Of a DNA stretch of 42,474 nt, positions 3,151-17,031 are shown piece by piece (positions within the stretch are counted from its first letter, which is position 1; each line of letters starts with the position of its first letter). A program made the translations under genes and the position numbers. The notes beneath the pieces are model-generated. The model made no database searches. It was not told the origin of the DNA and saw only the letters and a program-made list of their open reading frames with translations. The stretch is from an uncultured Clostridia bacterium (lineage in GTDB: Bacteria; Bacillota; Clostridia; UBA1381), in NCBI GenBank assembly GCA_947624165.1, contig CANQJC010000017.1, positions 1 to 42,474 on the forward strand, written 5' to 3'.

Positions 3151-3168
3151 TACACGTTCCTTACACGA
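3151..3168. repeat. 18-bp repeat at the 3' end of the recombinase gene (copy 1)
   Basis: TACACGTTCCTTACACGA; contains two TACACG hexamers 11 bp apart and overlaps the recombinase stop codon. It matches 16 of 18 positions with 4397-4414, upstream of the same gene. Paired short direct repeats next to an integrase are typical of recombinase arm-binding sites; that role is inferred. Confidence 0.5.
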
Positions 3169-4321
3169 ACGGAAACAGTTTATTCATAAGCGTGACGGCA
3201 CGCTCCTCCTCGCGCGGATAAAGGTGCGCATAGACCTTCCATGTCACCTCGATATCGGCGTGTCCGAGCCTGCGCGCGATCTCTTGTATGTTTATGCCGT
3301 TGTTCGCAAGCAGCGACGCGTGCGAGTGCCTGAAGTCATGGACGCGTATGCGCTCCAGCCCCGCACCCTGCGAGTATTTCTTGTTGCGGAAATCGGTCGT
3401 CGTCGTGCGGACGCACCGCGTACCGCCGCATATGCGGAAGTCCTCGCTGAATCCTTCCATTTTCTCGTGCCGCGCGCGGTGCTCTTTCAGTATTTTTATC
3501 AGCGGCTGCGGCATCTGAAGGTCGCGCATGGACGTTGTGCTCTTTGTCGGCGTTTCCATGTCGCCGCCGTTGATTTTCTGCACAAGGTTGCGCCGCACGT
3601 GAATAATGTCGCCGTCTATGTCCGACCATTTCAGTGCGCATATCTCGCCGCGCCGCATACCCGTGAAAAAAGCTATATTGAAAAAAACGTAATATTCCCA
3701 TTCCTTTTTGCTGCCCTCCGCTTCGACGCGTTCCGCTTCCTCGCGCGCGAACGTTATGAACTTCGTGAACTGCTCCGGCGTATAGTATTTCATCTCCTTC
3801 TTCATTTCATATGGATTTTTGAAATTCCCGACGCTCGTCAGCGGATTTTTCGGGATATATTCCATTCGTACCGCGTAGTTAAGCAGCGTGCGGAATTCGC
3901 CGTATATGTCCTGTTTGAGCATGAGCGATATCTTGCAGTCGGGACGCCGCTCGCGCGTGCGTTCGCTGAAATGCGATTTCCATCTTTGCAGAAGCGGTAC
4001 GGTCAGCTCGCGCAGCGTATAAAACCCAAGCTCCGGCAGTATGTAAGGCTCTATGCGCGTGCGTATGGCGCGCAGCGTGTTTTCCCGAATCTCGTGTCTG
4101 CGCGTTTCGATGTATTCCTCGTAAAGCGCGGTCAAGGTCATGTCCGGCGCGCCCATCGGCTTTACCTCGCGGTTTAAACGTTCCTCAAGCTGCTTTGCCG
4201 CTTCCTTTCCGTATGCCACCCTGTCAAGCTGGCGCGCTTTGCCCGTTTTGTCCGTGTAGTTGATTCGGACGCGGTAACGCTGCAATCCGTCCCGCTTTCC
4301 TTCCATTTTGTATATAGGCAT
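3161..4321 (-). CDS. Tyrosine recombinase / phage-type integrase
   Basis: A complete 386-residue site-specific recombinase of the phage/Tn916 integrase family. Layout: an N-terminal arm-binding-like domain (about 1-55, YRVRINYTDKTGKA), a SAM-like core-binding domain (about 60-160) and a catalytic domain (about 175-386). Catalytic residues are all visible: Arg223 in TGMRRGE, Lys260 in the beta-hairpin (TPTKST), His328 and Arg331 in HDFRH, His354 in LGHAD and the nucleophile Tyr364 in WKVYAHL. The ATG at 4319-4321 has a good ribosome site (GAGAGGAGG) and a promoter just upstream. No excisionase, relaxase or phage structural gene is present, so it is either the remnant of an integrated element or a stand-alone recombinase acting locally. 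Its stop codon is only 38 bp from the start of the decapitated surface-protein frame on the same strand, and it is flanked by near-identical 18-bp repeats. Confidence 0.95.
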   Translation of the reverse strand: MPIYKMEGKRDGLQRYRVRINYTDKTGKARQLDRVAYGKEAAKQLEERLNREVKPMGAPDMTLTALYEEYIETRRHEIRENTLRAIRTRIEPYILPELGFYTLRELTVPLLQRWKSHFSERTRERRPDCKISLMLKQDIYGEFRTLLNYAVRMEYIPKNPLTSVGNFKNPYEMKKEMKYYTPEQFTKFITFAREEAERVEAEGSKKEWEYYVFFNIAFFTGMRRGEICALKWSDIDGDIIHVRRNLVQKINGGDMETPTKSTTSMRDLQMPQPLIKILKEHRARHEKMEGFSEDFRICGGTRCVRTTTTDFRNKKYSQGAGLERIRVHDFRHSHASLLANNGINIQEIARRLGHADIEVTWKVYAHLYPREEERAVTLMNKLFPFV

Positions 4322-4618: not shown

Positions 4619-7396
4619 ATGTTCAAAAATTCAAAGAAGAGCTTGAAGAAGTTAGGCATTTTCTCTTTGGTTCTTGCACAGGTCGCAGCGGTCGGACTTG
4701 TTGCTCCGACGAGCGCGGGCGCATTCGCCGGCAGCGCGATAACAAGAAACATGGAGAAGCTTGACAGAGGCGTTGTCGCTACGAAAACAAGCGACGGCGT
4801 GCTTGTGTCGTGGAGACGTCTTGGTACGGAGCCTGCCGACACACAGTTCACCCTTTACAAAAACAAGGAAAAGATCGCCGAAGGCGCGATTACAAACTTT
4901 GTTGACGCTCAGGGTACGGTAAACGATAAGTATACGGTAGTGGCAAACGGCGAAATGTCGGCTCCCGCTCCTGTTTGGGAGAACGGATATCTTGACATTA
5001 AGCTTGGCGAAACGCCCGAAAGCGACGTTATTCAGTACGACAGAAACGGTGTTTACATCGGTGCTTACGCCCCCGGCGACTCGTCATACGGCGACCTCGA
5101 CGGCGACGGTCAGTATGAAATAGTAATGATGTGGAACCCGTCGAACGCTCTCGACGCGGCGACGACAGGTAAGACAAGTAAGGTATTCGTAGACGCTTAC
5201 AAGCTCGACGGTACTCAGCTTTGGAGAATCGACATGGGCTTCAATATCCGTGCCGGTCAGCATGACACGATGCTCAACGTTGCCGACTTCAACGGCGACG
5301 GTAAAGCAGAGGTAATGCTCAGAACAGCCGACGGTACGATCGACGGTACGGGCAAGATGATAGGTGACGCTTCGAGAGGTACGACATATGAGGAAAGCTG
5401 GGCTGCTCTGAACGCCGGTAAAAACCTTCAGGGTCCCCTGTACGTAACCTGCTTCGACGGTGAAACGGGTGCGGCTCTCGACACGATCGACTATTTCCCG
5501 AACAACCAGGTTGGTTCGATGGCTACATGTTACAGCTTCGGCGACGACTTCGGTAACCGCTGCGAAAGATATAACGGTACGGTAGCTTATCTCGACGGTA
5601 AAACTCCTTCGGCTATATTTGCAAGAGGTTATTACTTCGGTAAGAACATCTCCTCGCCGAACGGACGTGCGGCTTGTGCGGCGTACAGCTTCAAGAACAA
5701 TAAGCTGACATTGGAGTGGTCGTTCGATACTGCGGACAGCAAGAACAACGGCTTCATCGGTCAGGGTAACCACCAGATCGAAGCCGGCGACGTCGACGGC
5801 GACGGTAAAGACGAGATCATCTCCGGCGCGCTCGTATGGGACGACGACGGTAAGGTTTTATGGTGTACATATCAGGAGCATGGCGACGCTATGCACCTTG
5901 GCGACTTTGACCCGACTAAGGAAGGTCTCGAGTTCATGAAGGTTTACGAGGACTACACCAGCGACGGCGAAGTATTTGACCTCGCAGGCAAGCAGCTTTC
6001 TCCGTTCATTACGAGCGAAACAAAGTTCCAGAACTCGCAGGCAGCCGCTGAAGGCGGCGCGGCAACGGATCGTCATATGTGGGGCGGTACCGTTCAGAAC
6101 GCCAAGACGGGTGAATTCTATCAGATGCATAACGGCGTTAAGGATACAGGCCGTGGTATGATTGCTAACATCGGTTACGGCGACAGCTACTACGTAATGT
6201 GGGGCGCAGGTTCAATGGGTTACTGGGATAACGAAGGTAACGAGCTTCCCGATCTCGGCGCGTCAATGAACGGCAGAATTTATTGGGACGGCGACCTTCA
6301 GGACGAACTTCAGGACCACAACGGAACAGAAGTTACGCTCGCTAAGTGGAACGATTCGTCGAAGAAGTTTGACGAAATCTTCAAGGGCGAAGGCTCGCAC
6401 TCGATCAACGGAACAAAGGGTAACATGAACCTCCAGGCAGACCTCTTCGGCGACTGGAGAGAAGAAGTTGTTTCCTATGCTATAACAGGCTCCAACACGG
6501 AGAAGGAAAAGATGACGCTCAAGGGCGACTGGGATAAGGACGTCGAAGTTGAAATGGATAAGACGGTTTATCAGTATTCGCTGAGAATATATGAGACGCC
6601 GTATCCGACGGACTATAACTTCTATACGCTCGCTCATGACGATATTTACAGAAACTCTTCGGGATGTTATTCGAACTGCTACAACCAGCCGCCTCATATC
6701 AGCTGGTACATGAACGACAAGATCGCAGGTTCGACATACACGACGCAGCCTGATGCAAACATCAGTCTTGTAAACAATAAGTACGTTCCGACGAAGTTTG
6801 ACGAGAGCCTTCTTCCCGAAGGCGGCTCCGGCACAACGGTTACTACGCCTGTCGGCGACTTCCCGTTTGTTGACGCGGTAAGCCACTGGGGTAAGGAATA
6901 CATCGAGAAGATGTATAAGGCCGGCGTTATAAACGGTATGGACGACACGCACTTCGAGCCGGAAGGCACTGTAACGAAGGGTCAGTTCGCTACGCTTATA
7001 GTAAACGCTTTGAAGCTTGACGTTGATTCGTCGCTCGCAAGCGAGCATTGGGCTATGCCTTATGTGAAGGCTGCTCAGAACGCTAACCTTATCGCTTCGG
7101 ATATTCCGTTCACTGTTGACCAGTTTGACGTTAATATCACGAGAGAAGAAATGGCTTCGATGGTAGCAAAGGCTGCTGCTTATAAGCAGATTACGGCTGA
7201 GCCTGCCGCTGAGAATGCGTTTATAGACGCTGACCAGATAGCAGACTGGGCAGTTGCAGACGTTAAGAACACTGTTGCTCTCGGTATCATCAACGGTATC
7301 GACACAGACGCAGGTCTTACATTCGCTCCGAAGGCAAACGCCAAGAGAGCTGAAGCTGCAACAATGCTTTCAAAGCTCTGGGATTTGATCCAGTAA
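4619..7396 (+). CDS. SLH-anchored PL11 rhamnogalacturonan lyase
   Basis: 925 residues. A signal peptide (lysine-rich start, hydrophobic core, cleavage near AGAFA at about 35-37) leads into a polysaccharide lyase family 11 domain to about residue 735. PL11 enzymes cut the rhamnose-galacturonate bonds of rhamnogalacturonan-I by beta-elimination on a calcium-rich beta-propeller; the family hallmarks visible are GDLDGDGQYEIV (about 157), DFNGDGKAEVMLRTADGT (about 223), GNHQIEAGDVDGDGKDE (about 388) and GHGDAMHLGDFDP. Three SLH modules (from about 745: HWGKEYIEKMYKAGVING; HWAMPYVKAA; WAVADVKNTVALGIINGI) should hold it on the cell wall, so it probably acts as a cell-tethered depolymerase feeding the importer at 22819-26293. 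Start chosen for the strong ribosome site. It is monocistronic, with its own terminator. Whether it is endo- or exo-acting (YesW or YesX type) cannot be told. Confidence 0.93.
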   Translation: MFKNSKKSLKKLGIFSLVLAQVAAVGLVAPTSAGAFAGSAITRNMEKLDRGVVATKTSDGVLVSWRRLGTEPADTQFTLYKNKEKIAEGAITNFVDAQGTVNDKYTVVANGEMSAPAPVWENGYLDIKLGETPESDVIQYDRNGVYIGAYAPGDSSYGDLDGDGQYEIVMMWNPSNALDAATTGKTSKVFVDAYKLDGTQLWRIDMGFNIRAGQHDTMLNVADFNGDGKAEVMLRTADGTIDGTGKMIGDASRGTTYEESWAALNAGKNLQGPLYVTCFDGETGAALDTIDYFPNNQVGSMATCYSFGDDFGNRCERYNGTVAYLDGKTPSAIFARGYYFGKNISSPNGRAACAAYSFKNNKLTLEWSFDTADSKNNGFIGQGNHQIEAGDVDGDGKDEIISGALVWDDDGKVLWCTYQEHGDAMHLGDFDPTKEGLEFMKVYEDYTSDGEVFDLAGKQLSPFITSETKFQNSQAAAEGGAATDRHMWGGTVQNAKTGEFYQMHNGVKDTGRGMIANIGYGDSYYVMWGAGSMGYWDNEGNELPDLGASMNGRIYWDGDLQDELQDHNGTEVTLAKWNDSSKKFDEIFKGEGSHSINGTKGNMNLQADLFGDWREEVVSYAITGSNTEKEKMTLKGDWDKDVEVEMDKTVYQYSLRIYETPYPTDYNFYTLAHDDIYRNSSGCYSNCYNQPPHISWYMNDKIAGSTYTTQPDANISLVNNKYVPTKFDESLLPEGGSGTTVTTPVGDFPFVDAVSHWGKEYIEKMYKAGVINGMDDTHFEPEGTVTKGQFATLIVNALKLDVDSSLASEHWAMPYVKAAQNANLIASDIPFTVDQFDVNITREEMASMVAKAAAYKQITAEPAAENAFIDADQIADWAVADVKNTVALGIINGIDTDAGLTFAPKANAKRAEAATMLSKLWDLIQ

Positions 7397-7576: not shown

Positions 7577-9091
7577 GTGAAGGAAAGATCATATATCGCG
7601 ATAGATTTAAAGAGCTTTTACGCGTCTGTCGAATGTGTCGAACGCGGGCTTAATCCGCTTACGACAAACCTTGTCGTGGCGGATGAAAGCCGTACCGAAA
7701 AAACGATATGTCTCGCCGTGTCTCCGTCGCTCAAATCATACGGAATACCGGGACGCGCGCGCTTGTTTGAGGTGATACGCCGCGTCAGGGAGGTAAACGC
7801 CGAACGCGGCCGCCGGATCGGCGCGGGAGGTTTTTCGGGAGCGTCGTTTGACGACAGCTTACTGAAAACCGACGATACGCTGAAGCTCGACTACATAATC
7901 GCGCCGCCGCGTATGGCGCATTATATGGATTACAGCACAAGGATATACAATATTTATCTGCGCTATTTCGCGCCCGAGGACATACATGTTTATTCGATAG
8001 ACGAGGTGTTTATCGACATAACCGATTACCTCACCGCATACGCGCTCACTCCGCGCGCGCTCGTTATGAAAATAATTCGGGAGATCCTGTCCGAAACGGG
8101 GATAACGGCGACGGCGGGTATCGGAACAAATCTGTATTTGTGCAAAATCGCGATGGACATAGTCGCGAAGCGCGTCGAGCCAGACGCGGACGGAGTACGT
8201 ATCGCGGAGCTTGACGAGACGACCTACCGCCGTATGCTGTGGACGCACAGACCGATAACCGATTTTTGGCGCGTCGGCAGAGGTTACGCGCGTAAGCTTG
8301 AAGCGCACGGAATGTATACGATGGGCGATGTGGCGCGATGCTCTCTGGGCGGCTCGGAGCAATTTTATAACGAGGAGCTTCTGTATAAGCTCTTCGGCAT
8401 GAATGCCGAATTACTCATAGACCACGCGTGGGGCTTTGAATCATGCACGATAGCCGACATAAAGGCGTATAAGCCGAAGTCCAACAGTATCGGCTCCGGT
8501 CAGGTTTTAAAATGTCCGTACAGCTTCGAAAAGGCGCGGCTCGTGATTCGTGAAATGGCGGATCTGCTGTCGCTCGACCTTGTCGATAAGGGGCTTATCA
8601 CGGATCGCATAGTTATGACCGTCGGATATGACGTTGAAAATCTCGGTGCGGGAAACTCCTATAAAGGGGCAACGACGACGGATTTTTACGGACGCAGAAT
8701 ACCAAAGAACGCGCACGGCACAATAAATCTTCCGCGCGCAACGTCGTCAACAAAAGCGATAGTCGACGCCGCGTCGGAGCTTTTCGATAAAATCGTAGAT
8801 CCCAAGCTTACCGTGAGAAGAATGTACATTACCGCCGAACGCGTCAAGGACGAGAAAAACGCGGACAAGAAAAAGCGTTATGAGCAGCTCGATCTGTTTA
8901 CCGATTATGACGCGCTCGAAAGGCAGCGCGCGAAGGAAAAGACGGAGCGCGACAAAGAAAAAAATGTGCAGAAGGCGTTGATAGACATAAAAAAGAAATT
9001 CGGCAAGAACGCCGTAATGAAGGGTATGAATCTGAACGAGGGCGCGACCTCGATCGAACGCAACGGTCAGATAGGAGGACACAAGGCTTAA
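7577..9091 (+). CDS. Y-family DNA polymerase (UmuC/UvrX-like)
   Basis: 504 residues, GTG start. A translesion DNA polymerase of the Firmicute UmuC/YqjW branch: the palm begins with IAIDLKSFYASVEC (metal ligand Asp9), the second acidic pair is in YSIDEVFIDI, and AGIGTNLYLCKIAMD is the conserved segment after it. A QLDLF sequence near the C-terminus is a beta sliding-clamp binding motif, followed by a basic helix and the C-terminal segment KGMNLNEGATSIERNGQIGGHKA-type that is common in Firmicute homologues. It has a little-finger domain at about 300-410. The next gene, a YolD-like protein two bases downstream, is the usual partner of this polymerase branch. Inferred role: error-prone bypass of DNA damage. 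The overlapping inverted repeat at the promoter may be an operator. Confidence 0.93.
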   Translation: MKERSYIAIDLKSFYASVECVERGLNPLTTNLVVADESRTEKTICLAVSPSLKSYGIPGRARLFEVIRRVREVNAERGRRIGAGGFSGASFDDSLLKTDDTLKLDYIIAPPRMAHYMDYSTRIYNIYLRYFAPEDIHVYSIDEVFIDITDYLTAYALTPRALVMKIIREILSETGITATAGIGTNLYLCKIAMDIVAKRVEPDADGVRIAELDETTYRRMLWTHRPITDFWRVGRGYARKLEAHGMYTMGDVARCSLGGSEQFYNEELLYKLFGMNAELLIDHAWGFESCTIADIKAYKPKSNSIGSGQVLKCPYSFEKARLVIREMADLLSLDLVDKGLITDRIVMTVGYDVENLGAGNSYKGATTTDFYGRRIPKNAHGTINLPRATSSTKAIVDAASELFDKIVDPKLTVRRMYITAERVKDEKNADKKKRYEQLDLFTDYDALERQRAKEKTERDKEKNVQKALIDIKKKFGKNAVMKGMNLNEGATSIERNGQIGGHKA

Positions 9092-9093
9092 AA

Positions 9094-9501
9094 ATGGACA
9101 ATTACGATGATATAATAAATTTGCCGCGTCACGTTTCCAAAAAGCATCCGCGCATGAGCGCGGAGGAGCGTGCGGCGCAATTCAGTCCCTTCGCCGCGCT
9201 CACGGGCTACGGAGACGCGGTAAAGGAGGCGGCGCGTCTTACCGACGAAAGGATAGAGCTTGACGAAGAAAGCAAAGCCTTGATCGACGCAAGACTGCGG
9301 GTAATAGCCGAGCATATAAAAGAACGCCCCGCCGTTTCGATAACGTATTTCAAACCCGACGAGAAAAAGTCGGGCGGCAAGTACGTCACGCACGTCGGCG
9401 CGGTACGGCGTATCGACGAGTACGCGCTCGCCGTAATAACGGTCGATAAAACGGCTATCCCGATAGAGGATATCGCCTCGATAGACGGAGAAATATTTTA
9501 A
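9094..9501 (+). CDS. YolD-like protein
   Basis: 135 residues. It matches the YolD-like family that accompanies UmuC-type polymerases in Bacillus and Clostridia (YqjW-YqjX, UvrX-YolD): N-terminal IINLPRHVSKKHPRMSAEERAAQFSPFAAL, then a helix, then a small beta domain ending in IPIEDIASIDGEIF. It begins two bases after the polymerase stop, with its ribosome site (GGAGG at 9075-9079) inside the upstream gene, so the two are surely co-transcribed. Biochemical function is unknown in the family; a role as polymerase cofactor or regulator is inferred. Confidence 0.88.
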   Translation: MDNYDDIINLPRHVSKKHPRMSAEERAAQFSPFAALTGYGDAVKEAARLTDERIELDEESKALIDARLRVIAEHIKERPAVSITYFKPDEKKSGGKYVTHVGAVRRIDEYALAVITVDKTAIPIEDIASIDGEIF

Positions 9502-9506
9502 TAAAA

Positions 9507-9551
9507 AAACGCCCGAAGGACGGGCGTTTCGCCCCTCGCAGGGGCGTTTTT
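9507..9551. terminator. Convergent terminator pair between yolD-like and GTPase-nuclease genes
   Basis: Two adjacent hairpins: AAACGCCCG / CGGGCGTTT (9507-9529) preceded by A-tract and followed by TTT, serving both strands, and CGCCCCT / AGGGGCG (about 9530-9546) followed by TTTTT. They separate the plus-strand polymerase operon from the minus-strand gene that ends at 9550. Confidence 0.85.
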
Positions 9552-12117
9552 ATTTGCGCGATATCACATCGAGAATAGCCTTTTCGGCATTTTTTATTTC
9601 ACTCAAAAACTCGGACGCGGAAACTCTGACCGCCCCGCCGCCCAGAATTATGATTTGCTCCAGACTGTCAGACGTGGCGACGCGCACCCGATGCTTCGGC
9701 GCGAGCCGCCGCGTCGTTTTTTCGATGTACATGTCGGCGGTTTCGGCTTCTTTTGTGTATACGACGTTTATATTGTGTATTTTTTCCACGCTGCCGACAT
9801 TACCCTTTACCTTGTACGCGTCGAAAACAACAATGACCTCGCACTGAGTAAAGCCTTGATAATTGCATAGAATATCTATCAACGCGTCGCGCGCCGCGTC
9901 GAGACTTGCGCGCGCTTTTTCGCGCAGATCCTCCCACGCGAAAATAATGTTGTACCCGTCTACGAGCAGATAGTCGGAGCCGGACGGCGCGCGTTTCGCT
10001 TTGACGCGCTTCTGCGGCTTTGGCGCGGCGGCTCTGACTTCGGTATACGACGACTTCTTCCTGACGATCGGTCCGTACGTCCGCTCAAAAATACGCATAA
10101 GCTCGTTGTCGTCGGCGACCATGGACAAGTAATTTTCCGCGCGGTCCTCGTCGCTCTCGTCCGCGCTTTCGTCGCCGATACCGAGCGGCGGTATGTGCAT
10201 ATGCTCATAAACCTTGTCCCACTTCACGACAAATCCCGCTCCGTGCGAACAAAACACCGAATCCGACGGATTGTCCAAATCGGCGTCCGCGTCGTAGCCT
10301 ATGCTTTCTATAACTTTCTCGCTGTCGGCGCACGGTCTGTACCCGCCGAGAATACAGCCGAGCCTACCCTTGCCGCCGGTATATGAAACGACCTCGCTCC
10401 CGTAGCCGCGCATCGCCGCGACGCTCGCGCTGCCCGTGATAACCGTGGTATCGCCGTATGTCTCAGGCTCGCCGAACGTGCCGCCCATATTTTGTATATC
10501 GGTCATGGCTCGTCCGACTGACGAGGACGGAAGCTCGAGACGGAAATCATAGTACGGCTCAAGGAGTATGCACCGCGCCGATCTGAGCCCCTGACGCACC
10601 GCGCGGTACGTCGCCTGACGGAAATCGCCGCCCTCGGTGTGCTTCTGATGCGCGCGTCCCGCGACGAGCGTTATTTTCATATCGGTTATCGGCGAACCCG
10701 TAAGCACGCCTATATGCTGCTTCTCCTTTAAGTGCGTAAGAATGAGCCGCTGCCAGTTTTTATCGAGCGAATCCTCCGAACAGTCCGCTTCGAACGTCAG
10801 CCCGCTGCCGCGCTGCGTCGGTTCCATGAGCAGATGTACCTCCGCGTAATGCCGAAGCGGCTCGTAATGTCCGACGCCCTCGACGCTCTCCGCTATGGTT
10901 TCCTTGTACGCGATAGAGCCGTGCGTGAAATGCACGCCGAACCCGAATCTTTCACGAATCACGCGCGCGAGCACCTCAAGCTGTACTTCGCCCATGACTT
11001 GTACCTGGATTTCCTTGAGCTGCTCGTTCCATATGATATGAAGCTGCGGATCCTCCTGTTCGAGACGGCGAAGCTTTACGAGAGCGTCGTGAACGCTTAC
11101 GCCGTCTGCGATCTCCGCTTTGTATGTGAGGACGCTTTCCATAAGCGCGGGCTGCGCGTCCGGCGCGACGCCCAGTCCCTCTCCCGGATACGTTTGCGTA
11201 AGCCCCGTGACGGCGCATACCATTCCTGGAAACGCTTCGTCCGCTGTTTGATATTTCGCGCCCGAATAAATTCGTATTTGATTTACTTTTTCATTCCATT
11301 CGTTTCTTTTGCTGCCCGACAGCGTGTCTCTGACCCTGAGAATTCCTCCCGTTATCTTCATATACGTCAGTCTGACGCCCTGCTCGTCCTCCGCGATTTT
11401 AAACACGCGCGCTCCGAAACGATCGTCGTATATCATCCGCCGTGTGTAACGCTCCAATCCCGCGAGGAACTCCTTTATTCCCTCCAGCTTCAGCGCGCTG
11501 CCGAAAAAACACGGAAATATCCTGCGCTGAACTATCGCGTTGCGTATATCCTCCGTTCGAACCGAACCGTTTTCGAGATAGTAATTCATAATATTTTCGT
11601 CGCGCATGGAAAGCTCGTCGGCAAGATCCGCGTCGTCCGTTTCGCGGCTGAAATCTATACACCCGTCGCCGAAACGGTATTTCAGCTCGCGCATGAGAGC
11701 GTCTTTGTCGGCGTGCAGATCCATTTTATTCACAAACAAAAACACAGGAACGCCGTAACGTTCAAGAAGACGCATAAGCGTTTGGGTGTGCGTCTGTACG
11801 CCGTCCGCGCCGCTCACGACAAGTATCGCGTAGTCAAGCACGCTCAGCGTGCGTTCCGTCTCCGTGGAAAAATCTATATGTCCCGGCGTGTCGAGAAGAG
11901 TAAACACGGTGTCGCCGTATTTCATGACCGCCTGTTTGGAAAAAATCGTGATACCCCTGTCGCGCTCTATCTCGTTTGTATCGAGGAAAGCGTCGCCGTG
12001 GTCTACTCTGCCGATTTTTCTTATCTCTCCCGCCGTATAAAGCATCGCTTCGGAAAGCGTCGTTTTGCCCGAATCCACATGCGCCAATATTCCGACCGCA
12101 AGTCTGTTCATAATCAT
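9550..12117 (-). CDS. Tet(M)-like translational GTPase fused to a YacP/Rae1-type NYN ribonuclease domain
   Basis: About 855 residues against about 640 for Tet(M). The first ~640 residues are an EF-G-like ribosomal-protection GTPase: P-loop AHVDSGKTT, switch I DRGITI, DTPGH, NKMD and GSAL are intact, followed by the later EF-G domains (EPYYDFRLELPSSSVGRA aligns with the domain IV region of Tet(M)). A hydrophilic linker (about 640-715) leads to a NYN/PIN-like domain (about 716-856) resembling Bacillus YacP/Rae1, the ribosome-associated nuclease that cuts mRNA in the A site: LLVDGYNIIFAW, VIVVFDAYKVKG, YTKEAETADMYIEK and VATSDSLEQ carry the acidic active-site residues (about 721, 767, 796, 818). 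Starts TTG 12120, ATG 12117 and ATG 12111 are possible; ATG 12117 best fits the GGGAACGG ribosome site. Own promoter, divergent from the RNA unit. I infer a stalled- or drug-bound-ribosome rescue role; tetracycline resistance itself is unproven. Confidence 0.92.
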   Translation of the reverse strand: MIMNRLAVGILAHVDSGKTTLSEAMLYTAGEIRKIGRVDHGDAFLDTNEIERDRGITIFSKQAVMKYGDTVFTLLDTPGHIDFSTETERTLSVLDYAILVVSGADGVQTHTQTLMRLLERYGVPVFLFVNKMDLHADKDALMRELKYRFGDGCIDFSRETDDADLADELSMRDENIMNYYLENGSVRTEDIRNAIVQRRIFPCFFGSALKLEGIKEFLAGLERYTRRMIYDDRFGARVFKIAEDEQGVRLTYMKITGGILRVRDTLSGSKRNEWNEKVNQIRIYSGAKYQTADEAFPGMVCAVTGLTQTYPGEGLGVAPDAQPALMESVLTYKAEIADGVSVHDALVKLRRLEQEDPQLHIIWNEQLKEIQVQVMGEVQLEVLARVIRERFGFGVHFTHGSIAYKETIAESVEGVGHYEPLRHYAEVHLLMEPTQRGSGLTFEADCSEDSLDKNWQRLILTHLKEKQHIGVLTGSPITDMKITLVAGRAHQKHTEGGDFRQATYRAVRQGLRSARCILLEPYYDFRLELPSSSVGRAMTDIQNMGGTFGEPETYGDTTVITGSASVAAMRGYGSEVVSYTGGKGRLGCILGGYRPCADSEKVIESIGYDADADLDNPSDSVFCSHGAGFVVKWDKVYEHMHIPPLGIGDESADESDEDRAENYLSMVADDNELMRIFERTYGPIVRKKSSYTEVRAAAPKPQKRVKAKRAPSGSDYLLVDGYNIIFAWEDLREKARASLDAARDALIDILCNYQGFTQCEVIVVFDAYKVKGNVGSVEKIHNINVVYTKEAETADMYIEKTTRRLAPKHRVRVATSDSLEQIIILGGGAVRVSASEFLSEIKNAEKAILDVISRK

Positions 12118-12145: not shown

Positions 12146-12174
12146 ATAATATCATACAGAAATTTATTTGTCCA
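12146..12174 (-). promoter_or_regulatory. Promoter of the GTPase-nuclease gene
   Basis: Minus strand: TGGACA (12174-12169), 17-nt spacer, TATTAT (12151-12146). Its -35 element lies only 12 bp from that of the divergent promoter at 12187-12215, so one regulator bound between them could affect both. Confidence 0.6.
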
Positions 12175-12186
12175 ATAAAATATCTA

Positions 12187-12215
12187 TTTACAAAACAAAA
12201 AAGATGTGATATAAT
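12187..12215 (+). promoter_or_regulatory. Promoter of the structured RNA / XRE leader
   Basis: TTTACA (12187-12192), exactly 17 nt, TATAAT (12210-12215). The expected start of transcription (about 12221-12223) coincides with the first base of the long inverted repeat at 12221. Confidence 0.75.
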
Positions 12216-12288
12216 GACTGTGCAACACATTTGAATATTTTCACCAAGCTCGGCGTACGTTAGAATAAAACGTATGCTTTAATCCAAT

Positions 12289-12342
12289 ATGCTGAGCTTT
12301 TGGCATTCAGATGTGTTGCAACATACAAAAGCTGCGTTTTAG
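12289..12342 (+). other. Possible 17-codon leader peptide abutting the terminator
   Basis: ATG at 12289 opens MLSFWHSDVLQHTKAAF and stops with TAG at 12340-12342, directly before the first base of the terminator stem at 12343. A ribosome at the stop codon would cover the terminator's 5' arm. There is no clear Shine-Dalgarno site, and so short a frame can occur by chance. Confidence 0.25.
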
Positions 12343-13904: not shown

Positions 13905-14022
13905 ATCGGCTTAAAAAACAGATAAAAATTTATAAAAATCCGAAGTTATATTAAAAAGAAACCCACTTTCTGTAACATATATGATACAATACTGTAAAGT
14001 AATGTACATGAAAGGAAGTAAA

Positions 14023-17000
14023 ATGATGAGGAAAAACAGAATTATATCCGCGGCGGTATCGGTCGTGATGCTTCTGTCGGCGGTATCGGCTTCGGCTGCC
14101 GAAGCGGGCGAGAGCCTTAAGGTAAAGGATTATCCCGAATCCGCGGCGGCTACGCAAAAGCTTATCGACGCGCGTCCCGATACGCTGCGGCCGATGGAAA
14201 AGCTCGGACGCGGCGCGGTTGCCGTAAAGATGGACGGATATGTTTATCTGTCGTGGCGTTGGCTCGGCACGGAGAGCGCGGACACGAAATACAATGTATA
14301 CGCGTCGGTGGGAAGCGACTGGACGAAGCTCAATCCCGAACCGCTCAATGCCACGAATTATACGGCGTTGTCGGATTCGTACACCGTTTTTAAAGTCGTT
14401 CCCGTCCTGAACGGAAGCGAGGATGAAACGTCGGCGGAGACAGTCACGGTATGGGATAAGAATTACATAGATATTCCGATAAAACGTCCCGAGAATAACA
14501 CGGTGCAGGGCGAGGAATATACGTATTCACCCTCGGACGCGTCTATCGGCGACCTTGACGGCGACGGCGAATACGAGATAGTTTTAAAATGGGATCCGTC
14601 GAACGCGAAGGACGCGGCACAGTTTGGATTTACCGGCGAGTGTATCATCGACGCGTATGAAATGGACGGCACGCAGATGTGGCGCGTGAATATGGGACCG
14701 AATATCCGCGCGGGCGCGCACGACACGCAGTTCATGGTATACGACTATGACGGCGACGGCAAGGCTGAAATGGCTTGCCGTACTTCTGACGGAACGATAG
14801 CGGGCGACGGTACCGTTATCGGCGACGCGGAAAAGAATTGGGCTGCCTTAAACGGCGGCAAAAACCTTATGGGTCCGCTCTACCTTACCGTATTCAAGGG
14901 TGAGGACGGAAGCGTTATAGACACGGTCGACTACGACCCGCAGACACAGGGTACCACGGAAAGCGGTCAGAAATGGGACGTTGTGACGTGGGGCGACGCG
15001 GGCGGAAACCGCTCGGAAAGATATCTCGCGGCTGTCGCGTATCTTGACGGCGAAAGACCGAGCATGGTATTTGCGAGAGGTTACTACACAGGTCCCGAAG
15101 GCGACGTGGGCGGCAGGACCGTTATCGCGGCATTTGACCTGAAGGACGGTAAAATAGTGAAAAAATGGCGTTTTGATACGCTCGATTACGAAAACAAGTA
15201 CATCGGACAGGGCAACCACTCAATGAGCGCGGCTGACGTCGATTATGACGGCTGCGACGAGCTTATTTACGGCAGCCTTGCCGTTGACAACGACGGAACG
15301 CCGATGTATTCGACAGGCTTGGGTCATGGCGACGCGCAGCACGTCGGCGATCTCGACCCGTCGAGACCCGGTCTTGAGGTTTACTCCTGTCATGAGGACA
15401 GCGGCTCGGCTTACGGCTATGAAATGCGCGATGCGCGCACGGGCGAGATACTTTACGGCGAAAGAACGAGCAACGACAACGGACGCGGCACGTCGGACGA
15501 TATCGACCCCGCATACCCGGGAGCCGAGGGCTGGTCGGCGGCAGGCGTTCTTACGGCAGCCGACGGCACTGTCATTTCGACCGCGTACACGATGAGCGCG
15601 AACTTCCTCGCTTACTGGGATTCGGATCTGGGACGCGAGGTGCAGGACGGTATTTATATAAGTAAGTGGAACGGCGAGACGCAGAAAGCCGAGACTATCT
15701 TTACGGCGTCTGGCTGTACCGCCGTTAACGGCACAAAAGCCAATCCTTCGCTTACCGCCGACATGTTCGGAGACTGGCGCGAGGAGGTAATGTACCCGTT
15801 AAAGGACGGCAGCGCGCTTCGTATTTACACAACGACAACGCCGACGCCGTACAGAATACCGACGCTTATGCACGACATTCAGTACAGAATGCATGTCGCG
15901 TATCAGAACGATTGCTACAATCAGCCGACGCACACAAGCTATTACTTGGGCTTTGACACAAACACGGTACCCGTTCCGATGATCTATACGGTGGGCGACA
16001 ACGCGAAGAACCCCGACCTTTCAAAGAAGTCGTGGAACGTAAACGACCTGTACACCGGCGAAAAAGTGGAGCTTGTTGTCGGTACGCCGACGGCGGTAAC
16101 GGACGGTCAGCCTATAAGAATAGATAACGACAGCACCGACGTCGTTCCCGTTGTGGACGAAAACGACCGCACGCTTGTTCCGCTTCGCTTCATTGCCGAA
16201 GCGTTCGGCGCGACGGTAAATTGGAACGCCGACGCCCAGTGGCAGATAACGGTATTTACGAACGACGGCAAGTACGTTGGTATGAAGGTCGGTGAAACGA
16301 CGTATGAAACCGGCAGCTATCAGGGTCAGACTGCGGGAACGCCCGGCAGCGGCGCGGTCAGCGTTGTTTCCGATAAGCAGAGCCTTACGATGGACACCGC
16401 TCCCGTGATTCGCGACGACAGAACTCTCGTGCCTTTGCGCGCGCTTGTCGAATCGCTTGGCAAGAAGGTTTACTGGAACAACGGACTTATCGTTATCTCG
16501 GACGTTGACGTTGACATGACGGACGAGGCGGCTGCGGAAAGAAAGTCTATAATAGAGAAGGCTCCCGTTCCCAAGAAGATAGAGAAGGTAGCCATTAACG
16601 GCGTTGGCGAGAAATATTACGACAATCAGCTCGACGTTTACGATGTAACGGCAAGCGATAATGACGGTAACGTTGAAGCCGGCGCGGTAGATCTTGACAT
16701 AACAACGCGCTGGTCCGGCTTCGGACCCAATACGCTCACGGTCGACCTGGGCAGCGAACAGGAGGTTTCGGGCGTAGCCATAGCCATGTGGAAGGGCAGC
16801 GAGAGAATATATCCGTTCATAATCGAATACAGCGCGGACGGAGAGAACTGGAAGACGGCTTTGCCCAAGACACAGAACACCGGCGAAAGCGAGGAATTTG
16901 AAAAGTACATGTTCCCCGAAACCGTTAAAGCGCGTTATATCCGCTACAACGGCGACGGCGCGACAGACCCGCAGAAAAATTACTGTCACATCAGTGAAAT

Positions 17001-17031
17001 AGCGGTACTTGGCGCGGCGGTATCAAACTGA
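14023..17031 (+). CDS. Secreted PL11 rhamnogalacturonan lyase with CuAO-N-type and F5/8C (discoidin) domains
   Basis: 1002 residues from ATG 14023 (AAAGGAAG at 14011-14018); an upstream in-frame ATG at 13981 lies in the probable -10 and is less likely. Signal peptide about 1-25 (cleavage near ASA-AEA). The PL11 domain (about 45-660) has GDLDGDGEYEIV, DYDGDGKAEMACRTSDGT, GNHSMSAADVDYDGCDE and GHGDAQHVGDLDP. Two copper-amine-oxidase-N-like repeats follow (TLVPLRFIAEAFGATVNW about 716, TLVPLRALVESLGKKVYW about 801); these occur widely in secreted Firmicute proteins and probably bind the wall. The C-terminal discoidin-type domain (about 854-1002; ITTRWSGFG, LTVDLGSEQEVSGVAIAMW, ARYIRYNGDG) is likely a carbohydrate-binding module. 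It thus shares the catalytic fold of the lyase at 4619 but not its SLH anchor, and the two may act on different substrates or layers. Confidence 0.93.
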   Translation: MMRKNRIISAAVSVVMLLSAVSASAAEAGESLKVKDYPESAAATQKLIDARPDTLRPMEKLGRGAVAVKMDGYVYLSWRWLGTESADTKYNVYASVGSDWTKLNPEPLNATNYTALSDSYTVFKVVPVLNGSEDETSAETVTVWDKNYIDIPIKRPENNTVQGEEYTYSPSDASIGDLDGDGEYEIVLKWDPSNAKDAAQFGFTGECIIDAYEMDGTQMWRVNMGPNIRAGAHDTQFMVYDYDGDGKAEMACRTSDGTIAGDGTVIGDAEKNWAALNGGKNLMGPLYLTVFKGEDGSVIDTVDYDPQTQGTTESGQKWDVVTWGDAGGNRSERYLAAVAYLDGERPSMVFARGYYTGPEGDVGGRTVIAAFDLKDGKIVKKWRFDTLDYENKYIGQGNHSMSAADVDYDGCDELIYGSLAVDNDGTPMYSTGLGHGDAQHVGDLDPSRPGLEVYSCHEDSGSAYGYEMRDARTGEILYGERTSNDNGRGTSDDIDPAYPGAEGWSAAGVLTAADGTVISTAYTMSANFLAYWDSDLGREVQDGIYISKWNGETQKAETIFTASGCTAVNGTKANPSLTADMFGDWREEVMYPLKDGSALRIYTTTTPTPYRIPTLMHDIQYRMHVAYQNDCYNQPTHTSYYLGFDTNTVPVPMIYTVGDNAKNPDLSKKSWNVNDLYTGEKVELVVGTPTAVTDGQPIRIDNDSTDVVPVVDENDRTLVPLRFIAEAFGATVNWNADAQWQITVFTNDGKYVGMKVGETTYETGSYQGQTAGTPGSGAVSVVSDKQSLTMDTAPVIRDDRTLVPLRALVESLGKKVYWNNGLIVISDVDVDMTDEAAAERKSIIEKAPVPKKIEKVAINGVGEKYYDNQLDVYDVTASDNDGNVEAGAVDLDITTRWSGFGPNTLTVDLGSEQEVSGVAIAMWKGSERIYPFIIEYSADGENWKTALPKTQNTGESEEFEKYMFPETVKARYIRYNGDGATDPQKNYCHISEIAVLGAAVSN

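Follow-up and report, generated by a model that had tools for sequence, protein, structure and literature searches.

The window analyzed here, the whole 42,474-nucleotide contig CANQJC010000017.1 of an uncultured Clostridia bacterium, encodes on its minus strand a fusion protein in which an EF-G-like GTPase is joined to a YacP/Rae1-type NYN nuclease domain. On balance, this fusion is probably a self-delivered, ribosome-dependent messenger RNA (mRNA) endonuclease acting in place of Rae1/YacP, a reading suggested by the active-site residues of its nuclease domain and its near-complete exclusion with stand-alone YacP. The coding sequence and its parts map as follows:

9550..12117, minus strand: coding sequence of the fusion protein (855 amino acids (aa) plus stop; ATG 12117, possibly ATG 12111)
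11443..12102, minus strand: G domain (GTP_EFTU, residues 6-225, DTPGH present; Pfam 4.9e-49)
11191..11418, minus strand: EF-G domain II (EF-G_D2, residues 234-309; Pfam 1.4e-07)
10927..11073, minus strand: EF-G domain III (EFG_III, residues 349-397; Pfam 9.6e-07)
10576..10920, minus strand: EF-G domain IV (EFG_IV, residues 400-514; Pfam 7.2e-19)
10618..10659, minus strand: tip loop of domain IV (residues 487-500, GRAHQKHTEGGDFR), the subfamily signature, from alignments
10321..10566, minus strand: EF-G domain V (EFG_C, residues 518-599; Pfam 7e-14)
10189..10320, minus strand: C-terminal extension after domain V (residues 600-643), from alignments
9973..10188, minus strand: linker (residues 644-715), with DxELxxIFERTYG near 671-683 and a basic second half
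9553..9972, minus strand: YacP/Rae1-type NYN nuclease domain (residues 716-855), from Pfam, the 5mq8/5mq9 chains and the acidic positions

A preliminary description of this DNA had proposed that one continuous frame joins the two modules and that the GTPase is complete, and both statements hold: the frame is uninterrupted from 9550 to 12117, and Pfam recovers GTP_EFTU, EF-G_D2, EFG_III, EFG_IV and EFG_C within it. With a DTPGH-bearing G domain followed by domains II–V, the protein belongs to the wider group of EF2-family translational GTPases. Translation could alternatively start at TTG 12120 or at ATG 12111; the latter codes for residue 3, where the alignment begins for many relatives, and may be the real start rather than ATG 12117.

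The spread of the fusion was examined in two alignments that share at least four contigs. The first (A1) comprises the window protein and 38 full-length fusions, each from a different genome, drawn from 40 loci (L042-L081) after removal of an interrupted gene (L071) and a stand-alone gene (L078), the partial open reading frames (ORFs) of L001-L041 being excluded. The second (A3) has 59 rows, consisting of the window protein and 58 of the 76 usable named public loci (left out of the named set were two loci whose matches were short and two lacking an ORF of 700 aa). The fusion is colinear end to end in the 38 other genomes, six of them single-contig assemblies, with 49–71% identity, and is found in the 58 named public contigs with 50–70% identity to the window protein; the Monoglobus pectinilyticus fusion is NCBI protein WP_320690501.1. 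Since it recurs in this way, the fusion is neither a chance join nor an assembly slip. In a set of 60 relatives plus the window's own genome, NYN_YacP was found in 44 of 61, with 35 of the 45 matches lying within frames of 820–924 aa. Further named carriers include Ruminococcus flavefaciens FD-1, Intestinimonas butyriciproducens, Anaerovorax odorimutans, Fusibacter sp. 3D3, Eubacterium xylanophilum and Agathobacter rectalis, and some members are listed at NCBI as TetM/TetW/TetO/TetS family proteins, in line with the statement in the preliminary description that other clostridial genomes carry similar architectures annotated as tetracycline resistance proteins. One locus from a single-contig genome (G242, L071, 4944-7655) carries a fusion gene interrupted near residue 348, both parts of which share one frame. 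Two unannotated faecal “Bacteriophage sp.” records, MT835563.1 and MT835514.1, contain an almost complete coding sequence for the fusion, at 58% and 48% identity, respectively, and probably represent bacterial DNA deposited under a phage name.

The preliminary description had taken the system to be undescribed, which it is not. Atkinson 2015 reported Tet proteins with an acquired YacP-like NYN domain in ten clostridial species and suggested a resistance mechanism with RNase activity (PMC4342817). By that description the proteins have the same architecture as the fusion; the available portions of the article offer the ten species and a short hypothesis, and neither the distribution, nor the yacP exclusion, nor the tip signature was found there. 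The architecture is thus already known, and what is new here is the exclusion with yacP, the non-Tet tip, the ends of the unfused sisters and the loss of the NYN tail. A search of titles and abstract starts in the open-licence literature gave no later account of the fusion among the matches listed. Condon, writing in 2018, is said to have treated the distribution of Rae1 and may mention the fusion.

The C-terminal domain had been proposed to be of YacP/Rae1 type, and the profile and structure searches agree. NYN_YacP (PF05991) matched residues 717-849 with an E value of 1.2e-49 (169 bits against a cut-off of 24.6), and the Bacillus subtilis YacP/Rae1 crystal chains 5mq8/5mq9 matched residues 715-848 with E values of 1.7e-26 for the whole protein and 2.8e-27 for the NYN domain alone. 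D720, D766, D795 and D817 align with D7, D53, D81 and D104 of Rae1, which we take to be its catalytic residues, and all four, together with E799, are kept in 39/39 (A1) and 59/59 (A3) fused rows, so that the retention of four acidic active-site positions noted from the window protein extends to every fusion aligned. The acidic residues, the D720-N723 stretch, E799 and Q821 are identical in the 39 fused and 32 distinct stand-alone domains (Q821 is kept in 57/59 rows of the wider set A3). The fusion thus shares with Rae1/YacP the NYN_YacP profile and the equivalents of D7, D53, D81, D104, N10 and Q108, whereas Rae1/YacP is a stand-alone protein of about 170 aa encoded beside rlmB in B. subtilis and the nuclease of the fusion lies C-terminal to a GTPase and is without the conserved C-terminal tail. 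This tail, counted after A834, spans 47–51 aa in 39/39 stand-alone rows (32 distinct) as against 19–59 aa in the 39 fused domains, of which 16 have 28 aa or fewer; the window protein has 21 aa. The Rae1 R166P change in B. subtilis was recovered as a suppressor and classed by the authors as a loss of function (PMC6613710). By alignment, R166 falls 45 residues past the A834 equivalent, that is, within the tail, and we infer that the GTPase half may have taken over the docking that the tail gives in Rae1.

Co-occurrence with separate yacP genes was surveyed in 293 genomes of the class (≥90% complete, the window's own genome not counted), with frame length standing in for gene structure (fusion ≥600 aa, stand-alone ≤220 aa). 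NYN_YacP was present in 192/293 genomes, and the 293 divided into 98 with the fusion only, 86 with the stand-alone gene only, one with both (G332), seven unclear and 101 with neither. The single genome with both compares with 29.4 expected if the two were independent (P 3e-18 assuming independent genomes, a value that overstates the exclusion, since the genomes are related; that the count takes no account of common descent tempers our reading). Five of the seven unclear genomes (G225, G210, G102, G238 and G286) also match a profile of the GTPase (A2, described below) and probably hold cut or broken fusions. Both states occur within 6/49 families, in one of the six only via G332. A phylum-wide sample, sharing at least 11 genomes with the class sample, gave NYN_YacP in 163/299 genomes, with a single match in 162 of the 163 and two stand-alone matches in the remaining one; at least 18 fused frames were among the matches listed. 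This survey had been suggested in the preliminary description and its outcome, mutual exclusion, favors the reading given there. Because the fusion and stand-alone YacP are almost never found together, the fusion appears to act as the Rae1 of its lineage, which suggests that it takes the place of Rae1/YacP in these genomes. Stand-alone yacP lies directly after rlmB in 7/12 loci examined, including loci of four fusion-bearing families (10 of the 12 upstream regions were scanned; in the other two the strand carries no gene close upstream). These seven share the yacO-rae1 gene order of B. subtilis (PMC6613710), whereas the fusion gene of the window is not beside rlmB.

The GTPase half was then compared with EF-G and with the tetracycline-protection proteins. 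In a search against solved structures the best EF-G and Tet(O) chains scored about equally (219.7 and 216.6 bits, respectively). The best NCBIfam match of the window protein is tet_protect, at scores below the models' cut-offs: 392.2 bits against 775 for the tetracycline-protection model NF012153, and 280 bits against 659.4 for the EF-G model TIGR00484. Six of 20 unfused sister proteins were scanned against the tetracycline models and scored 401–468 bits, also well under the cut-off. Loop III of domain IV reads AHQKHTEGGDF in the window protein and is not of the Tet SPxSTPADF type; the pattern HxKHTxGGDFR is common to the fused proteins and 20/20 unfused sisters, with H490 kept in 57, K492 in 58, H493 in 59, G496 in 58 and G497-R500 in 59 of the 59 A3 rows. 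Loop I of type GHFEPLRHYAEV is likewise common to fused and unfused proteins, whereas Tet(O) and TetB(P) have SPxSTPADFR in loop III, where they nearly agree, and other loop I sequences. The fusion resembles EF-G in its domain order and in the histidine at the tip of domain IV: H490 aligns with H573 of the EF-G chain 4m1k, which we take to be that of T. thermophilus, and Tet(O) and TetB(P) have a tyrosine and a phenylalanine there, respectively. Five EF-G-like domains and an extension after domain V are shared with Tet(M), Tet(O) and TetB(P), but loops I and III and the extension differ and the scores fall far below the model cut-offs. The extension of the window protein, compared with the C-terminal helix that follows domain V in the tetracycline-protection proteins, is longer than that of Tet(O) and aligns with it only loosely. 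By sequence, solved structures offer it almost no counterpart: of 51 matches, 50 reach no further than about residue 606, and the remaining one, to an EF2 chain, stops by about 619; Y608, D613, S620, F622, C623, G626 and W633 within it are kept in 59/59 A3 rows. G17, K18, T57, H80, K131 and D133 of the G domain are kept in 39/39 A1 rows. By these sequence features the GTPase is a separate subfamily, existing unfused too, and the earlier assignment to the Tet(M) type is not sustained, given the shortfall against the Tet model and the different domain IV tip.

Profile A2, spanning the domain IV tip through the extension, was run on the same 293 class genomes and matched 125 of them, among the matches being unfused proteins of 618–724 aa. 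G040, with a short frame, and G261, whose match is weak and interrupted, were assigned neither to the fused nor to the unfused genomes. Unfused GTPases were found in 13 genomes with a stand-alone NYN gene and in six without any NYN. The 20 unfused proteins read end no more than about 15 residues from the end of the extension, where the linker of the fusion starts, so that they share its SVFC-type extension but end after it and have no nuclease. A more distant relative on the pMP118 megaplasmid of Ligilactobacillus salivarius (L198, 2986-4920) likewise has this type of extension, ends after it and has no nuclease. Its gene is close to rpsN, which encodes ribosomal protein S14; the record calls it a tetracycline-resistance protein, and its tip is VHTVGGDFR, without the first histidine. 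Two genomes whose stand-alone NYN domains fall among the fused ones in the NYN tree (see below), G276 and G260, also carry an unfused GTPase at another place, an arrangement that looks like a split state next to the fusion.

In the mechanism that we infer (ribosome binding, mRNA substrate, A-site location, order of events and trigger alike), the EF-G-like GTPase would bind ribosomes with an idle or blocked A site, and its domain IV tip, with H490 and KHTxGGDFR, would probe or open that site. GTP hydrolysis would then free the GTPase module from the A site, and the NYN domain, carried on a linker of about 75 residues and needing no docking of its own, could enter the vacated A site or the adjoining mRNA entry channel and cut the mRNA, the truncated message passing to transfer-messenger RNA (tmRNA)-SmpB rescue. 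More tentatively, the fusion may be a GTP-fuelled machine in which an unrecognized translational GTPase subfamily, marked by KHTxGGDFR, inspects stalled ribosomes and delivers its tethered Rae1 nuclease to the A site by a GTP-timed hand-off; this is plausible but short of probable. Nucleases that cut mRNA on stalled bacterial ribosomes are incompletely known, with Rae1 among the few named (PMC12320835). If the proposal is true, the fusion would be a bacterial quality-control factor that has spread through clostridia partly hidden under tetracycline-resistance labels, and it would point to an EF-G-type GTPase as a partner of Rae1. Resistance surveys are concerned as well, as the gene is present in about a third of the sampled class genomes and some records name it tetracycline resistance, although by sequence it scores below the cut-offs set for those very models.

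Domain IV and Rae1 would compete for one and the same A site, where the two modules could not be present together, so the proposed mechanism needs a hand-off, and this counts against it; the preliminary description took no account of the clash. It disappears in the main mechanistic rival, where the NYN domain on its tether cuts in the entry channel, ahead of or between stalled ribosomes, with domain IV still in place in the A site. The length of the linker favors such a model (61–118 aa, median 76 in the 59 fused rows, with the DxELxxIFERTYG stretch conserved), but a Pfam scan showed no known disome-binding element in the protein and published accounts have Rae1 acting in the A site as an endonuclease (PMC12320835, PMC6613710), and we regard cutting of this kind as unlikely.

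Protection against tetracycline or another A-site drug, with the GTPase displacing the drug in the manner of Tet(M) and the nuclease adding a further resistance activity, also seems improbable, although tet_protect is the best NCBIfam match, NCBI uses TetM/TetW/TetO/TetS names and the 2015 survey filed such proteins as Tet (PMC4342817). Tet(M) with the loop III substitutions S508A, P509A and V510A can stay active (PMC4750697), and loop III has the same length in the window protein; the tip sequence is therefore not strictly needed, and the tip alone cannot exclude drug protection, which weakens the argument drawn from it. On the other side stand the 392 bits against 775, the loops I and III unlike those of Tet(O) and TetB(P), and the presence of the fusion in 99/293 class genomes without a conserved neighbour. 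Moreover, 1058 plasmid records match the protein but only two cover ≥80% of it, both large and non-mobilizable, nor would one expect a resistance gene to exclude yacP. The least likely alternative is that the NYN domain trims or cuts ribosomal or transfer RNA on ribosomes or subunits checked by the GTPase, a role in RNA processing proposed for NYN domains by Anantharaman and Aravind 2006 (cited in PMC4342817) and in keeping with the frequent position of stand-alone yacP beside the 23S methylase gene rlmB, but at odds with the action of the characterized YacP, Rae1, on mRNA in the ribosomal A site (PMC12320835, PMC6613710) and with the absence of the NYN domain from 101/293 class genomes.

Several further results weigh against the reading that we favor. 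The absence of NYN_YacP from these 101 genomes makes its function dispensable. Six genomes (G231, G336, G125, G087, G084 and G112; loci L115, L114, L098, L106, L108 and L110) carry the GTPase in unfused form and gave no match to NYN_YacP, so that the GTPase is of use there by itself; 73/86 stand-alone-only genomes, G261 among them, are without a clear unfused sister GTPase at E 1e-25, and taken together these two sets indicate that neither module needs the other. The trees were both built by a quick method and have moderate support. In the GTPase tree the fused and unfused labels need two changes rather than one, with the L. salivarius protein (unfused, on a long branch) placed among the fused ones and L069 outside both groups at an open fork. 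In the NYN tree the split between fused and stand-alone domains has 94% in the Shimodaira-Hasegawa-like approximate likelihood-ratio test (SH-aLRT), which is below the star level, and three stand-alone rows join the group of the 39 fused domains, one from G276 and two identical ones from G260, which was sampled twice. R831 and E836 are kept in 25 and 23 of 39 fused domains, as against 32 and 30 of 32 stand-alone ones, and this lower conservation could mean a weaker function. SmpB and tmRNA were present in 10/10 fusion genomes checked, but both are near-universal and so say little. Finally, no recurrent gene neighbour was found across 119 loci (the fused ORF was recognized by clustering in 115 of them, and some contigs are counted twice); the next-largest neighbour clusters cover 14 and 10 loci, adjacent on the same strand in only 5 and 2 cases, and by eye these look like response regulators and ABC ATPases, both of them large groups of paralogues.

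Two putative signals flank the gene:

12146..12174, minus strand: promoter-like site TGGACA-17-TATTAT, with TG before the second hexamer and a very short leader
9506..9530, minus strand: terminator-like hairpin past the fusion gene, from sequence

With the promoter-like site about 30 bases upstream and the terminator-like hairpin just past the stop, the gene looks monocistronic, which suggests that it is transcribed alone; a similar promoter-like site was seen by eye before the gene of a congener (L043). An imperfect long hairpin lies at about 12205-12335 on the minus strand (fold z of -4.65 against shuffles for a 283-base stretch). It sits upstream of the promoter-like site and has no counterpart by eye before the genes of 13 relatives; matches in its own genome are to itself only, and Rfam gave no match in the window at gathering scores. 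Leader attenuation of the fusion gene was considered and rejected. A defence system was also considered and dropped, PADLOC having given a single weak match (E 0.0069).

The neighbours of the fusion gene in the window are a helix-turn-helix gene and an ORF for a 135-aa protein that neither Pfam nor NCBIfam recognizes (9094-9501), the latter following a Y-family DNA polymerase gene with IMS domains (7577-9091). A tyrosine recombinase of the phage integrase family (3161-4321, minus strand) lies near the polymerase and lyase genes. The fusion gene is flanked by two family 11 rhamnogalacturonan lyases (4619-7396 and 13981-17031); S-layer homology domains are present in one of them, F5/8-type and copper amine oxidase N-terminal domains in the other.

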